A DNA stretch of 64,000 nucleotides from Bacteroidales bacterium (GTDB taxonomy: Bacteria > Bacteroidota > Bacteroidia > Bacteroidales > UBA10428), in the NCBI GenBank assembly GCA_016935435.1, contig JAFGQZ010000062.1:1-64000 (forward strand), in the 5' to 3' direction. A program made the translations under genes and the position numbers. Of the stretch, positions 5,953 to 27,133 are shown piece by piece; the first letter of the stretch is position 1; each line of letters begins with the position of its first letter. The notes under the pieces were generated by a model. That model saw only the letters and a list, made by a program, of their open reading frames with translations, ran no database searches and had not been told where the DNA came from.

Positions 5953-6147
5953 ATAAAGGTAATTTATTGAATGCTAATTTATGTTTTGCTATATATAAAG
6001 GTATGATTTTAGTCAAGCTGCCCGGTTTTCAGTAAATTTTTCAAGTATAAAATGCATTTGGAGGCTTAGGCTATTAATAAACATTATGCTTATTATTTTT
6101 AAAAGTGCCTAAGTGATAATACTAAATTCTCAATTCAAAATTCAATT
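5953..6147. other. Intergenic region upstream of the repeat element
   Basis: AT-rich, no gene seen. Its right part carries the CAATTCAAAATTC simple-sequence motif that flanks both copies of the inverted-repeat element. A promoter for the leftward aspartokinase should lie here but no clear TAnnTTTG was found. Confidence 0.45.
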
Positions 6148-6277
6148 CGTTTAGTTAAGAAAAATAGAATTTCTAACTCCCCCGCGCACCCCTCAAATCC
6201 CCTAAAGGGGAAGGTCTGCGCGTTGATCCCTTTAGGGATGACAGGGTGTGTGATGGCAAAATATTGTTAACTAAACG
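6148..6277. repeat. MITE-like intergenic element, copy 1
   Basis: A 130-bp segment bounded by perfect 11-bp terminal inverted repeats, CGTTTAGTTAA (6148-6158) and TTAACTAAACG (6267-6277). Inside are two mutually inverted palindromic blocks, CCCCTAAAGGGG (6199-6210) and TCCCTTTAGGGA (6227-6238), followed by AGGGTGTG. It has no coding capacity. The same structure recurs at 25620-25754. It is flanked on both sides by AATTCAAAATTC-type simple repeats. It could be a non-autonomous mobile element or a REP-like repeat; no transposase is in the window. Confidence 0.7.
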
Positions 6278-6345
6278 ACCTTTGATTCAAAATTCTCAAT
6301 TCAAAATTCTCAATTCAAAATTCTTCAAACTATTATCTTGCTTAT
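6278..6345. repeat. AATTC-rich simple-sequence tract
   Basis: Near-tandem units of the form TCAATTCAAAATTC, repeated about three times between the inverted-repeat element and mfd. A similar but diverged tract (CACAATTCACAATTCA) follows the second copy of the element near 25765-25795. Confidence 0.55.
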
Positions 6346-15372: not shown

Positions 15373-17487
15373 ATGGCAATTATTCAGAGTATCAGGAATA
15401 GAGCTGGAATTTTAGTGTCAATCATAATTGGTATGGCACTGGTAGCATTCATCCTTGGCGATTTTCTAACCTCGGGGGGCACATACTTCAGGAAGAACCG
15501 CACACAAGTTGCAGTTATTAATGGCGAAGGCATTAGTTACGAAACCTACCAAAGAAAAATTGAAGAGCTCGAAGAAATAACAAAAATGCAAATGGGCACA
15601 AATGCCCTCGACGAAAGGGCATCGGAAGAAATTCGCCAACGTACCTGGCAGGAATTCACCCAGGAAAAAATAATGAACCGCGAATACAACAAACTCGGCC
15701 TAACCGTGCACAGCGATGAACTGTACGACCTTATTGGCGGAGAAAACCCCCACCCATACATTCAACAGTTTTTTGCCGACCCCAACACCGGTGTTATTAA
15801 CCGGGAAAACCTGCACCAGTTTCTATCGCAAATGAACCAGGTGGAATCGGACAACGAAAACAAAAAAGTATGGCTTTATATCGAAGACCTGATTTATAGC
15901 GACCGGAAAATAACTAAATACCGCAACCTATTAAGAAAAGGCCTTTACGCCACATCGCTTGAAACCAACCGTAAGTTTGACGACTTTAACAAATCGGTCG
16001 ATTTTTCGTACATTGTTAAACCCTACACCGGAGTTGCCGATACTACAGTTTCCTTCTCAGAAAAAGACATTAAAGAATACTATAAGAAACACAAAGAACA
16101 ATACAAGCAAAAAGCATCGCGCGATATTCGTTATGTTGTTTGGGAAGTTATCCCTTCGGAAAACGACTATAACGAAACAAAAACCTGGATTACCGAAGTA
16201 GCTGAAGAACTTAAACAAATCGATGCCGAAAATGCAATGCAGTATATAAGGGCCAATTCCGATGTTGTGCCGGATGCCCGTAACTTTGCGAAAGGCGAAT
16301 TGCCTTATCAAATCGACAGTTTTGCATTTGCTGCAAATACCGGCGATATTTACGGCCCCTATTTCGAAGACAATTCTTACAAACTTGCCCGTTTAGTTAA
16401 AGTGGTTTATCTGCCCGACTCGGTTAGGGCAAGCCATATTCTGCTTCAACCCAACCAAAACAATTATGCACAGGTACAGGCCTTGGCCGACAGTTTGCTA
16501 AACCTTGTTAAAAGCGGCGCCGACTTTGAAACACTTGCCCGCACACATTCGGCCGACGGTTCGCGCGAAAAGGGCGGCGACCTTGGCTGGTTTAAGGAAG
16601 GACAAATGGTTAAGCCCTTCAACGACACCTGCTTCGAAGGCAAAACAGGCGATATAAAACTGGTAAATTCCCAGTTTGGCATACACATTGTAAAAATTGT
16701 TAATCAATCGAAACCCTCGAAAAAAGTTCAGGTTGGCATATTATCGCGCGAGGTAAAACCAAGCGAAGAAACCGATCATTTATACTATACTAAGGCCAGC
16801 AGCTTTGGAGGGACAAACACCACCGCAGAAAAATTCAATGCTGCAACAGAGGCCGACAAGTCGCTTAAACTTCTTACAGCTTCGTCGTTAACCCAACAAG
16901 ATCAGAACATACCGGGAGTTGAAAGGTCGAGGGAATTAGTGCGCTGGGCCTTTAATGCCGAAGTAGGCGATGTAACCAATAAAGTTTACCAATTCGACAA
17001 TAAATATGTTGTGGCTGTTCTGGACAAAATTCGTGAAGAAGGCTATACACCGCTGGAAGAAGTTAAAAATATAGTTCAAATAGAGCTCCGCAAACAAAAA
17101 CAAGCTGAGAAGCTAATTTCAGAGCTTGAGCAGTATAAATCTCAAGGAAGCAGCCTGAACGACATTGCAGCAAAAATTGGCGCAGAAGTAAAAACGGCCA
17201 CCAACATCAGGTTTTCGTCATATTCAATACCAGGTTTAGGCGTTGAGCCTAAGTTAGTTGCAGCGGCCACCAACATAGAACAATCGGTTGTATCGGACGC
17301 AATTGACGGAAATAACGGAGTTTACCTTATACAGGTCGATAAAGTTAATTTGCCCGATGAAAGCATGAAGAACAACTTTAACAATAGCTTTGTTGAGCGC
17401 ACATACATGTCGAAAGTTTTTTCGGGTTCGACAATAGTATTAAACGATTTGGCAAAAATTAAAGACAATAGGATTAATTTCTATTAA
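15373..17487 (+). CDS. ppiD: PpiD/SurA-type peptidyl-prolyl isomerase, membrane anchored
   Basis: 704 residues. A single N-terminal membrane helix (AGILVSIIIGMALVAFILGDFL, about 13-34) anchors a periplasmic chaperone. A SurA-like N-terminal domain (about 45-200) is followed by a parvulin domain (about 345-455) with VRASHILL, the ARTHSADGSREKGGDLGWF segment and QFGIHIVKI, which are the hallmark rotamase motifs. The C-terminal 250 residues resemble a second degenerate parvulin-type region plus linker. The protein assists folding of secreted and outer-membrane proteins. A strong bidirectional terminator follows 20 bp after the stop. Confidence 0.93.
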   Translation: MAIIQSIRNRAGILVSIIIGMALVAFILGDFLTSGGTYFRKNRTQVAVINGEGISYETYQRKIEELEEITKMQMGTNALDERASEEIRQRTWQEFTQEKIMNREYNKLGLTVHSDELYDLIGGENPHPYIQQFFADPNTGVINRENLHQFLSQMNQVESDNENKKVWLYIEDLIYSDRKITKYRNLLRKGLYATSLETNRKFDDFNKSVDFSYIVKPYTGVADTTVSFSEKDIKEYYKKHKEQYKQKASRDIRYVVWEVIPSENDYNETKTWITEVAEELKQIDAENAMQYIRANSDVVPDARNFAKGELPYQIDSFAFAANTGDIYGPYFEDNSYKLARLVKVVYLPDSVRASHILLQPNQNNYAQVQALADSLLNLVKSGADFETLARTHSADGSREKGGDLGWFKEGQMVKPFNDTCFEGKTGDIKLVNSQFGIHIVKIVNQSKPSKKVQVGILSREVKPSEETDHLYYTKASSFGGTNTTAEKFNAATEADKSLKLLTASSLTQQDQNIPGVERSRELVRWAFNAEVGDVTNKVYQFDNKYVVAVLDKIREEGYTPLEEVKNIVQIELRKQKQAEKLISELEQYKSQGSSLNDIAAKIGAEVKTATNIRFSSYSIPGLGVEPKLVAAATNIEQSVVSDAIDGNNGVYLIQVDKVNLPDESMKNNFNNSFVERTYMSKVFSGSTIVLNDLAKIKDNRINFY

Positions 17488-23273: not shown

Positions 23274-24380
23274 TCAGCTAATAAGTTTAAAAATTTCATC
23301 GACAATATGCTCAGTTGCATTGGGTTTTGCCAGTTTCTGCGCGTTTTCGCCCAGGGTTTTCAGTTTAATTTTATCGGCCAATAAAGTAAGCGCTTCATCA
23401 ATTAAACGATTGCCAGCATCGGAATCGTTAATAGTAACAGCCGCACCTGCATTTGACAAGGCCAGGGCATTTTTTGCCTGGTGGTCTTCGGCAACGTTTG
23501 GTGAAGGCACCAAAACCGAAGGTTTGCCAACAACACAGATTTCAGAGAGGCTGAGGGCGCCTGCCCTGCTAATAATGAGGTCGGAAAGGTTATAGGCCAG
23601 GTCCATGCGCGAAACAAAATCGAGCACATGCACATTTTCAGGCACCTTTCCCTCAAGTTGTTCAAGAATATCGTTATAATAATATTTGCCTGTTTGCCAT
23701 AGCAGCTCAATACCGGCATGGGCAACTTTTTCAATTTTTGACAGTACAGCCCTGTTAATGGTACGTGCCCCCAGGCTGCCCCCCATTACAAACAATACCG
23801 GGTTTTCACTTTTTATCCCGAAATGCCTTCTTGCTTCGGCATGTAATTCGGGCGATATTTCAATTTTGCGCACGGGGTTTCCAAGGTTGACAATTTTTCC
23901 GGCAGGGAAATAGCGTTCCATATTGTTGTATGCCACACAAATTTTCGACACTTTCTTTGCCAGCATTTTATTGGTAAGCCCTGCATACGAGTTTTGCTCC
24001 TGTAAAAGACAGGGCACTCCCATTCGCGAAGCTGCCCTTAGTACAGGCGCCGAAGCATAACCGCCAACGCCGACTGCCACATCGGGTTTAAAATCTCTTA
24101 CTATTTTACGTGCCATTTTTTGGCTTTTCAGAAAATCTAACAATACCCTTATATTTTCAAGCGTGAATCTTCTGATAAGCCCCCTGACAGGCAGGCCGAC
24201 AATTTTATAGCCAGCTGCAGGCACGCGCTCCATTTCCATCCGGTTATTTGCCCCGGCAAAAAGAATTTCGGCGTCGGGCAAGCGTCTTTTTATTTCATCG
24301 GCAATTGCCAATGCCGGGAAAATATGCCCCCCGGTGCCGCCGCCACTTATTATTGCCCTTATATTTTTATTGTTTTTCAT
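23274..24380 (-). CDS. murG: MurG N-acetylglucosaminyltransferase
   Basis: 368 residues from the ATG at 24380 (MKNNKNIRAI); an upstream in-frame start at 24443 would add 21 residues inside ftsW with no family match. MurG transfers GlcNAc onto lipid I to make lipid II at the inner membrane face (GT28). Visible are IISGGGTGGHIFPALAIA near the N-terminus, GVGGYASAPV, FVMGGSLGARTIN and the SRAGALSLSEI donor-binding motif followed by PSPNVAEDHQAKNA. It overlaps the ftsW end by 14 bp. Confidence 0.96.
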   Translation of the reverse strand: MKNNKNIRAIISGGGTGGHIFPALAIADEIKRRLPDAEILFAGANNRMEMERVPAAGYKIVGLPVRGLIRRFTLENIRVLLDFLKSQKMARKIVRDFKPDVAVGVGGYASAPVLRAASRMGVPCLLQEQNSYAGLTNKMLAKKVSKICVAYNNMERYFPAGKIVNLGNPVRKIEISPELHAEARRHFGIKSENPVLFVMGGSLGARTINRAVLSKIEKVAHAGIELLWQTGKYYYNDILEQLEGKVPENVHVLDFVSRMDLAYNLSDLIISRAGALSLSEICVVGKPSVLVPSPNVAEDHQAKNALALSNAGAAVTINDSDAGNRLIDEALTLLADKIKLKTLGENAQKLAKPNATEHIVDEIFKLIS

Positions 24381-25548
24381 CGGTAGTTTCGGTAACAGTT
24401 TGAGCTTTAAGTTTTTTATCCTCGTCGATACAGCGGCTAACACTTAGTATCATGCCAAAGGCTGCTGCAGTAAAGAGCATCGAAGTGCCCCCCATTGATA
24501 TCAAGGGCAAAGGCTGACCGGTAACCGGTACGAGCCCCACTGCCACTGCCATGTTTACCAGGGCCTGCATTACCAGCATAAGGGCAAGCCCGAAAGCCAG
24601 AAATGCCTGAAAAGTTCGGGTACTCTGCCCTACAATTACCCCTGCCCTGTAAAGCAGGTATAGGTAAAGAAATATAACCAGCATGCCACCCCAGAAACCG
24701 TATTCTTCGAGAATAATAGCAAAAATAAAATCGGAATAAGGATGCGGCAGAAAGTCGCGTTGCATGCTGTTCCCCGGCCCCTTTCCAAAGAACCCCCCGG
24801 TTACAATGGCAATTTTCGACTGATCGGCCTGGTAATTTTCATCGCCGACATCGTCGGTTTCAATAAAATTTACTACCCTGTTCCTCCATGTGCCCCATCG
24901 GCCTTCCCAATCGGAGTTAAGGGCAAAAAGCACCAATACTACAACAATACCGGCCGACAAACCCGAAAGCCCCAGAATATAAACAAACCTTACCCTGCCG
25001 ATGAACATCAATACCAGTGAAACAACAAACAAAATAACTGCTGTAGAGAGGTTTGCCGGCATAATAAGCGAACACACCACCAAAACAGGCACTACCAGTG
25101 GCAAAAAACCCTGCCGGTATGTTTTAATGGTTTCCTGCCTGAGCGAAAGCATACGGGCAAGGAACATTATTAGCACCACCTTGGCAAGGTCGGAAGTCTG
25201 AAACGTAACACCCAGCCCTGGAACTTCCAGCCACCTCGAGGCCTGGTTTATTGTTGCCCCAAAAAGCAGTGTAACAGCAAGCAGTGGTACCGACAAATAC
25301 AATAAAAGCTGCGATAGCTTAGAAAAATACCGATAATGAATGCGGTGAACAAAATATATGGTAATAAAACCAAAAAATAAAAAGAAAGCATGCCGGAACC
25401 AATAATAAAGAGAATTCCCTCCCCTATATTGGTAAGCAAGTGTTTTAGTTGAACTAAAAACAGCCAGCATTGAAAATACCATAAGGGCAATAACCACTCC
25501 CCATAGTACCGGATCGCCTTTTAAATATTTCTTCAACCTTTCGGGCAC
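24367..25548 (-). CDS. ftsW: Lipid II polymerase FtsW (SEDS family)
   Basis: 393 residues with about ten membrane helices. SEDS glycan polymerase that works with FtsI at the division septum. Recognised are the GKGPGNSMQRDFLPHPYSDFIFA region (about 250-275), where the family signature lies, and PVTGQPLPLISMGGTSML near the C-terminus. It is followed by murG with a 14-bp overlap. Upstream is a 247-bp gap containing the second copy of the inverted-repeat element, the only large gap in the dcw cluster. Confidence 0.95.
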   Translation of the reverse strand: MPERLKKYLKGDPVLWGVVIALMVFSMLAVFSSTKTLAYQYRGGNSLYYWFRHAFFLFFGFITIYFVHRIHYRYFSKLSQLLLYLSVPLLAVTLLFGATINQASRWLEVPGLGVTFQTSDLAKVVLIMFLARMLSLRQETIKTYRQGFLPLVVPVLVVCSLIMPANLSTAVILFVVSLVLMFIGRVRFVYILGLSGLSAGIVVVLVLFALNSDWEGRWGTWRNRVVNFIETDDVGDENYQADQSKIAIVTGGFFGKGPGNSMQRDFLPHPYSDFIFAIILEEYGFWGGMLVIFLYLYLLYRAGVIVGQSTRTFQAFLAFGLALMLVMQALVNMAVAVGLVPVTGQPLPLISMGGTSMLFTAAAFGMILSVSRCIDEDKKLKAQTVTETTDEKQ

Positions 25549-25619
25549 GATAGTTAATATTTTTTTAATTTATGATGGAAGTAGGCATATTCATCCTTCA
25601 CAATTCAAATTTTAAAGGC

Positions 25620-25754
25620 CGTTTAGTTAATAAAAAAAAGCAATAGATGAAACCCTATCAATCACCCCATAATCCCCTAAAGGGGAAAACCAAACCCGCT
25701 GTTCCCTTTAGGGAATTTAAAGGGTGTGCGTGGGAAAATCTTGTTAACTAAACG
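25620..25754. repeat. MITE-like intergenic element, copy 2
   Basis: 135 bp bounded by CGTTTAGTTAA (25620-25630) and TTAACTAAACG (25744-25754), the same 11-bp terminal inverted repeats as at 6148-6277. The internal blocks CCCCTAAAGGGG and TTCCCTTTAGGGAA and the following AGGGTGTG are also shared, while spacer sequence between them differs. It sits between murD and ftsW inside the dcw cluster, flanked by CACAATTCA-type simple repeats. Confidence 0.7.
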
Positions 25755-25795
25755 ACATTGATTCACCATTCACAATTCACAATTCATAATTCAAA

Positions 25796-27133
25796 TTAAA
25801 GCTCCCTCACACATTCTTTAAACTGGGTACCACGATCTTCGTAATTCTTAAACAAATCGAAGCTTGCACAACAGGGAGAAAGAAGCACAACATCGTCTTT
25901 TACGCCATGTTTATAAGCTTTCATTACAGCTTCCTTCATAGATGAAGCATCATCGATAATATCGACAATACCCTTAAAAGCAGAATGAATTTTAGAATTA
26001 TCGACACCCAGGCAAACAATGGCCTTAACCTTTTCTTTTACCAGGGGCTCCAGGCTGGCATAGTCGTTTCCCTTATCAACACCGCCAACAATCCATATCG
26101 TGGGTGCGGTCATACATTCCAGGGCGTACCAGGTAGAATTTACATTAGTGGCCTTTGAGTCGTTAATAAATTCAATTCCATGTACTTTAATAAAACGTTC
26201 AAGGCGGTGTTCAACACCGGCAAAATCCTGTAAGCACTCCCGTATAATTTCCTTCTTAATATCGAGTACCCGCGATGCAATGCTGGCCGCCATGGAGTTA
26301 TAAGTATTGTGCTTGCCTTTAAGCGAAAGCTCCGACAATGGCACCGACATTTCGTCGTTATTGACTTTAATAACCATATTGCCATTTTCGACATGTGCCC
26401 CCTGTTTAACTTTTTTCTCCTGCGAGAATTCGAGTTGTTTGGCACGCAGCACAATTTTTTCGAGTTCAGCTATTGTTATTTCATCGTCGGAACAGTAGAT
26501 AAAGTAGTCGTCTTCAGAAAGGTTTTGTGTTATGCGGAATTTTGAATCGACATAATTCTGCATATTATATCCATACCTGTCGAGATGATCGGGGGTAATG
26601 TTGAGCAAAATTGAAATGTCGGGTTTAAACTCGAACATTCCATCGAGTTGGAAACTGCTAAGCTCAATTACATAGTAGTCGTATGTTTTTGTTGCCACCT
26701 GCATGGCGAAGCTTTTCCCCACGTTACCGGCAAGGCCGCAGTTGAGGCCAGCCCGGCGCAACATGTGGTGCAACAACGAGGTTGTAGTTGTTTTACCGTT
26801 ACTGCCAGTTATACATATTTTTTTTGCTGTGGTGTACCTGCCGGCAAACTCTATCTCAGATATTACAGGTATTTTTTTCTTTTGTATAAGTTGAATTATT
26901 TCGGCCTTATCGGAGATGCCCGGGCTTTTAATTACTTCATCGGCACTAAGTATAAGGCGCTCGGTATGTTGCTCCTCTTCCCAGTCGATTTCGTAATTGA
27001 ACAAAATTTCTTTATAGGCAGGTTTTATTTTACCCAGATCCGTTACAAAAACCTCGAATCCTTTGGTTTTAGCCAGCACAGCAGCACCTGTTCCGCTTTC
27101 GCCGGCCCCGAGAATGACAATACGTTTATCCAT
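25796..27133 (-). CDS. murD: UDP-N-acetylmuramoylalanine--D-glutamate ligase
   Basis: 445 residues. Adds D-glutamate to UDP-MurNAc-Ala. ILGAGESGTGAAVLA at the N-terminus, the ATP loop ITGSNGKTTTTSLLHHML (about 110-127), LNITPDHLDRYG, EHRLERF, NDSKATNVNSTWYAL and LLSPCCASFDLFKNYEDRG all match the family. It starts 3 bp after the mraY stop. Confidence 0.97.
   Translation of the reverse strand: MDKRIVILGAGESGTGAAVLAKTKGFEVFVTDLGKIKPAYKEILFNYEIDWEEEQHTERLILSADEVIKSPGISDKAEIIQLIQKKKIPVISEIEFAGRYTTAKKICITGSNGKTTTTSLLHHMLRRAGLNCGLAGNVGKSFAMQVATKTYDYYVIELSSFQLDGMFEFKPDISILLNITPDHLDRYGYNMQNYVDSKFRITQNLSEDDYFIYCSDDEITIAELEKIVLRAKQLEFSQEKKVKQGAHVENGNMVIKVNNDEMSVPLSELSLKGKHNTYNSMAASIASRVLDIKKEIIRECLQDFAGVEHRLERFIKVHGIEFINDSKATNVNSTWYALECMTAPTIWIVGGVDKGNDYASLEPLVKEKVKAIVCLGVDNSKIHSAFKGIVDIIDDASSMKEAVMKAYKHGVKDDVVLLSPCCASFDLFKNYEDRGTQFKECVREL

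Follow-up and report, generated by a model that had tools for sequence, protein, structure and literature searches.

The two repeated sequences in the window (the whole stretch analysed, 64,000 nucleotides of Bacteroidales DNA) are, with a probability of about 95%, gene-less MITEs of IS4 type that have 17-18 bp ends and 10-bp target-site duplications, use AATTC-type repeats as insertion hot spots and carry a palindromic core as a passenger. Copies throughout the genome, the fixed-length duplications and a transposase situated between the same ends in related organisms all support the MITE reading that had been proposed from the window.

Two Copies in the Window and Their Genomic Family

The original prediction described two copies with perfect 11-bp inverted ends, CGTTTAGTTAA, and the sequence is exact at all four ends: 6148-6158 (+) and 6267-6277 (-) in copy 1, and 25620-25630 (+) and 25744-25754 (-) in copy 2. 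The repeat is real, but its full length was underestimated, as it extends outward to 17-18 bp (CAATGTCGTTTAGTTAAG). The inverted repeats of both copies were also recovered independently by a repeat search of the window. A third exact CGTTTAGTTAA at position 16390 is unrelated; it lies within a coding sequence and has no element around it. The parts of the two copies and their surroundings are as follows (gene names were read from translations).

6143..6284 (about), + strand: MITE copy 1, full element with extended terminal inverted repeats; left end CAAT-TCGTTTAGTTAA, right end TTAACTAAACGACCTTTG
6133..6142, + strand: left 10-bp target-site duplication of copy 1, ATTCAAAATT, identical to 6285-6294
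6285..6294, + strand: right 10-bp target-site duplication of copy 1, ATTCAAAATT, among the highest-scoring 0.025% of positions in the window with the relatives-only target matrix
6199..6210, no strand: core palindrome CCCCTAAAGGGG of copy 1
6227..6238, no strand: core palindrome TCCCTTTAGGGA of copy 1
6285..6345, + strand: AATTC-type simple repeat with seven overlapping matches to the consensus AWTYNNRAWT
25614..25760 (about), + strand: MITE copy 2, full element; left end AAAGGCCGTTTAGTTAA decayed, right end TTAACTAAACGACATTG intact
25761..25770, + strand: right target-site flank of copy 2, ATTCACCATT
25674..25685, no strand: core palindrome CCCCTAAAGGGG of copy 2
25703..25714, no strand: core palindrome TCCCTTTAGGGA of copy 2
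24367-25548, - strand: ftsW, neighbour of copy 2
25796-27133, - strand: murD, neighbour of copy 2

The left end of copy 1 has one base fewer than CAATGTCG and its right end has one base more. The left flank of copy 2, ATTCAAATTT at 25603-25612, matches ATTCACCATT at 7 of 10 positions, with the left end shifted by 1 nt. The internal palindromes CCCCTAAAGGGG and TCCCTTTAGGGA are found in both copies, as had been predicted. The interiors have indeed diverged, yet they are clearly homologous, matching at 80% over 84 bp by BLAST and alignment. Copy 2 occupies the interval 25548-25796 within a cell-division gene cluster, and it is probably transcribed as part of an operon, because the flanking murD and ftsW are both on the minus strand of this cluster.

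The genome from which the window comes (G000) is a draft of 3.94 Mb in 107 contigs, estimated to be 93.5% complete. When copy 1 was compared with it by BLAST, 55 pieces were obtained; with further searches, these resolved into 13 complete copies, a degenerate one at C52:95053 and another 14 that are truncated at contig ends, so that the expectation of additional copies was borne out. The copy number is about 20-28; two truncated pieces may in some cases belong to a single copy. The extended 17-mer end, with up to three mismatches, has 46 matches (32 of them with two or fewer) vs. 25 for the reversed pattern. The repeat in the window is not due to chance, since the element is repeated genome-wide and the 17-mer exceeds its reversed control. 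Elements in this genome are ~141-211 bp long, contain no coding sequence and have inverted repeats of 17-18 bp. The basic form measures ~141-149 bp; another has gained a 35-nt insert (CTTAGCGAAGCGATCTCATGAGCTAAGCGAATAA), and the form represented by L155, L156, and L160 is more distant. Fourteen contig ends are situated inside or beside an element (C3, C5, C12, C17, C18, C20, C35, C39, C65, C68, C69, C81, C97, and C101), marking this family as a main cause of breaks in the draft.

A 10-bp Target-Site Duplication

Flanking sequences were compared, with fixed boundaries, for 35 elements with both ends from this genome and from related Bacteroidales. Left and right flanks are 77% identical at a length of 10; at the remaining lengths between 6 and 14, identity is 26-40%. 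At least 8 of 10 positions match in 24 of the 35 elements, and all 10 match in 12. When the pairings were shuffled 2,000 times, an average of 4.8 positions matched, compared with 7.7 in the real pairs, and never more than six elements reached 8 or more. The 10-bp direct repeats flanking the elements are a target-site duplication, and the search for duplications suggested from the window thus returned a length of exactly 10 bp across the 35 elements. The duplication of copy 1 is ambiguous when taken alone, because it lies inside a local AATTC-type tandem repeat, but its 10 bp agree with the length found throughout the family. Of 393 sampled genomes of the order, 43 contain the exact 17-mer end, and none contains the reversed pattern. 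The family thus shows the features by which MITEs are recognized: a length below ~500 bp, non-coding sequence, terminal inverted repeats, a duplication of fixed length, dispersed copies and sites in relatives that lack the element.

IS4-Type Parent Elements

In related genomes, the same ends surround different interiors. Two copies in G029 (L097 and L098) are internally deleted insertion sequences that retain part of an IS4-family transposase. The search for a transposase with the same ends also led to complete elements, with the transposase intact, in related Bacteroidales.

L105: 1500 bp, transposase of 394 aa, Salinivirgaceae MAG
L106: 1480 bp, transposase of 424 aa, Bacteroidales MAG
L124: 1498 bp, transposase of 399 aa, genome G307, with a perfect 10-bp duplication ATACTTGAAT

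The L105 and L106 transposases match the NCBIfam model NF033592 ("IS4 family transposase") with 148 and 176 bits against a cut-off of 115, and both score above the cut-off of Pfam PF01609 (DDE_Tnp_1). Published features of the IS4 subgroup are a size of 1400-1650 bp, ends of the form -AATR--------WTW, direct repeats of 10-13 bp and the YREK motif (PMC2266710, Table 1). The parent elements are 1480, 1498, and 1500 bp long, CAATGTCGTTTAGTTAAG agrees with the end consensus at all fixed positions, the direct repeats are 10 bp, and the DDE transposase has the YREK motif, seen as YHFRWNEEEAYKLLK in L105 and L124. By size, ends, duplication length and motif, the parent thus appears to fit the IS4 subgroup of the IS4 family, the comparison with Escherichia coli InsG being pairwise only (22% identity over 276 aa, E 2e-16). 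The ends of IS4 from E. coli K-12, TAATGCCGATCAGTTAAG, match CAATGTCGTTTAGTTAAG at 14 of 18 positions, and that element likewise has a DDE transposase with YREK and a long duplication, although the latter is 12 bp there and 10 bp here. The two differ in that the transposases are only 22% identical and in that the window copies have no gene.

That no source transposase is visible, as stated in the original prediction, holds for this draft genome, in which none of IS4 type was found by Pfam family or protein search; the type of the source was nonetheless identified from relatives. One could have been missed, because a multi-copy 1.5-kb element easily drops out of a short-read bin and multi-copy elements break contigs. 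Among the viral contigs searched, no relative of the transposase was found, and the plasmids searched contain relatives only below 60% identity, mostly annotated as IS4 family. In genome G022, two IS4-type MITEs (L090, 100-222 and 1739-1861) flank a single polysaccharide deacetylase-like gene in a layout resembling a composite transposon.

The window copies, judged by eye, resemble REP/BIME-type repeats in being GC-rich imperfect palindromes in intergenic DNA, which would imply movement by a REP-associated tyrosine transposase through the single-strand Y1 mechanism. Transposition of the Y1/HUH type, however, leaves no target duplication, whereas one of 10 bp is present here; the ends match those of a parent element that encodes a DDE transposase, and the elements are discrete units of 130-180 bp with long AT-rich inverted ends. 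A REP origin is therefore extremely improbable, and we retain the IS4-type reading. An integron attC site was also considered from the GTT/AAC-like ends and was rejected, as the RYYYAAC/GTTRRRY pattern misfits by eye.

Target Preference and Insertion

The duplications give a palindromic target consensus, AWTYNNRAWT. With a target matrix derived from relatives only, 8 of the 64 highest-scoring positions in the window fall within the flanks of the two copies, where 0.2 would be expected, and nowhere else in the window does AWTYNNRAWT form runs as dense as in these flanks. The AATTC-type repeats, correctly noticed round both copies, are thus arrays of target sites and are best read as preferred landing sites; they probably predate the insertions.

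A divergent gene pair, lysC-mfd (aspartate kinase and mfd; names read from translations), is conserved in four genomes of the same genus. The gap between the two genes is ~134-257 bp and has no such ends in G001, G002, G004, and G006, and it is 432 bp with the element here. The proposed check for empty sites thus yielded an orthologous region lacking the element, although the same-genus lysC-mfd regions are too diverged to be aligned base by base and provide no base-exact empty site.

These observations are consistent with the following mechanism. An IS4-type transposase would bind both MITE ends in trans and excise the element, which would then be joined to a staggered 10-bp cut at an AT-rich palindromic AWTYNNRAWT site. 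Repair of the gaps would yield the 10-bp duplication, and insertions would be concentrated in the AATTC-type repeats, as these are arrays of such sites. The core, with two hairpins inside the outer inverted repeat, may be a passenger module; it is also found between quite different transposon ends.

Folding and Selection on Structure

Conserved ends and palindromes had suggested selection on structure or mobility, and the 10-bp duplications speak for mobility. If selection acted on structure, the element might be a structural RNA or DNA element, such as a terminator, an mRNA stabilizer or a protein-binding palindrome, with its ends belonging to one long hairpin and not being those of a transposon. 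The whole element folds well (z of -4 to -7 for the copies in the genome of origin), the core palindromes are conserved whereas the spacers diverge, and the copies are intergenic, one being between ftsW and murD. Against this, RNAalifold on 13 copies predicts 25 pairs, none of which has a compensatory change, so that selection at the RNA level is unsupported despite the strong folding. None of the Rfam gathering thresholds is reached; a chance match to SCARNA7 has 16 bits against a threshold of 65 bits. Furthermore, the exact 10-bp duplications and the occurrence of the same ends round transposase genes require transposition, and the element is absent at the orthologous positions of same-genus genomes. 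A structural element is already refuted as the sole explanation and is improbable as a reading of the family, and mobility is the part of the earlier suggestion that stands.

A Palindromic Core Between Different Ends

The core of the IS4-type MITEs has the layout CACCCCT, hairpin, AACGCGCTG, hairpin, AGGGGTG, and the hairpins contain CCCCTWWAGGGG palindromes. The genome of origin contains CCCCTNNAGGGG at 32 sites and the control at two. Seventeen of the 32 sites are in IS4-type elements, and most of the other sites that were read out lie within elements with other ends. The same core is surrounded by AGTGCCTGCAAGAAAACT-type ends in five copies (L162, L163, L164, L212, and L213, on contigs C52, C3, C58, C25, and C74). 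Flanks in the AGTGCCTGCAAGAAAACT family show a 4-bp duplication, with 75% identity at length 4 vs. 29-46% at the other lengths (26 element pairs, including a few spurious overlaps).

Several related elements were observed alongside. The genome of origin contains a second MITE family, consisting of AGTGCCTGCAAGAAAACT ends, 4-bp target duplications and the same core, and a third type of element in which GAGGMTGTCTCAAAAGT ends surround this core (L161, 175-327, on contig C42). In other Bacteroidales, further end types, GAGGCTGTCCAAAAAG and AGTGTCTGTCTATAAACT, are situated round related palindromes (L177, L181, and L187 in G151; L064, L184, L189, and L194 in G035 and G062). Two loci on contig C52 (L210 and L211; 155450-155950 and 160800-161150) have runs of CCCCTTTAGGGG / CCCCTAAATCCCCTGGAGGGG palindromes near genes and no recognized transposon ends.

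A profile was built from the interiors of the IS4-type family only, with the ends removed. Scores of 34-45 bits are obtained for most of the cores with other ends (families B, C, and D), and weaker ones of 20-26 bits for L163 and L213; no reversed-sequence control is among the 60 best matches. In G139, a genome from another family, IS4-type ends enclose a core that is 81-87% similar. Conversely, unrelated palindromes lie between these same ends in G014, G022, and G032. The same core between different ends and the same ends round different cores imply that ends and cores combine freely, although the loci were picked by core similarity, so that the frequencies of the combinations are unreadable from them. 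We tentatively suggest that the core is a unit passing between small transposons of unrelated transposases, represented in the genome of origin by IS4-type, AGTGCCTGCAAGAAAACT and GAGGMTGTCTCAAAAGT ends; this is possible rather than established. Such exchange may reflect hairpins that shield the element from transcription or promote its transposition, a good core being kept whichever enzyme moves it.

Alternatively, GC-rich palindromes may have been captured independently, the shared core being a case of convergence and not one module exchanged between transposon families. Capture seems easy, as several unrelated GC-rich palindromes lie between IS4-type ends in other genomes, and palindromes match in both orientations, which inflates similarity scores. 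However, the profile reaches the cores of the other families at the scores given above with reversed controls absent from the best 60, and the match covers both hairpins plus the spacer AACGCGCTG. Convergence thus appears unlikely.

Relation to Known Elements and Significance

The mobile insertion cassettes of IS231 in Bacillus cereus are non-autonomous, are bounded by IS4-family ends and often carry passenger genes. The window elements are likewise non-autonomous with IS4-family ends, but the ends of the IS231 subgroup differ, and where those cassettes often have passenger genes, a palindromic core is all that is found here. As far as the general accounts of the family go, mobile insertion cassettes are named alongside IS231 (PMC2266710, PMC6542083). 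MITE239, MITE464, MITE700, and BrickBuilt of Porphyromonas gingivalis are also miniature, intergenic Bacteroidales elements with IS-like ends (PMC4596501). Unlike the window elements, they have IS5-type ends and short or irregular duplications, and no IS4-type ends. Tn3-derived inverted-repeat miniature elements (TIMEs) are described in outline as generating mosaic non-autonomous transposons (PMC4133298) and so offer a precedent for mosaic small elements; the ends there are of Tn3, whereas here one core is common to IS4-type ends and to ends with a 4-bp duplication.

The reading of the elements as a MITE of the IS4 subgroup is well supported; such a MITE is ordinary in kind and, as far as the open literature searched shows, newly described. 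The modularity of the core is the less ordinary part. A repeat family that had no annotation in uncultured Bacteroidales can now be placed in a named transposase family; its ends, the length of its duplication and its target site can be tested, and the location of the elements in AATTC repeats is explained by target preference. If the modular reading is true, small transposons in these organisms would be built from interchangeable ends and cores, and the question of why many bacterial MITEs have strong palindromes would become directly testable by swapping ends against cores.
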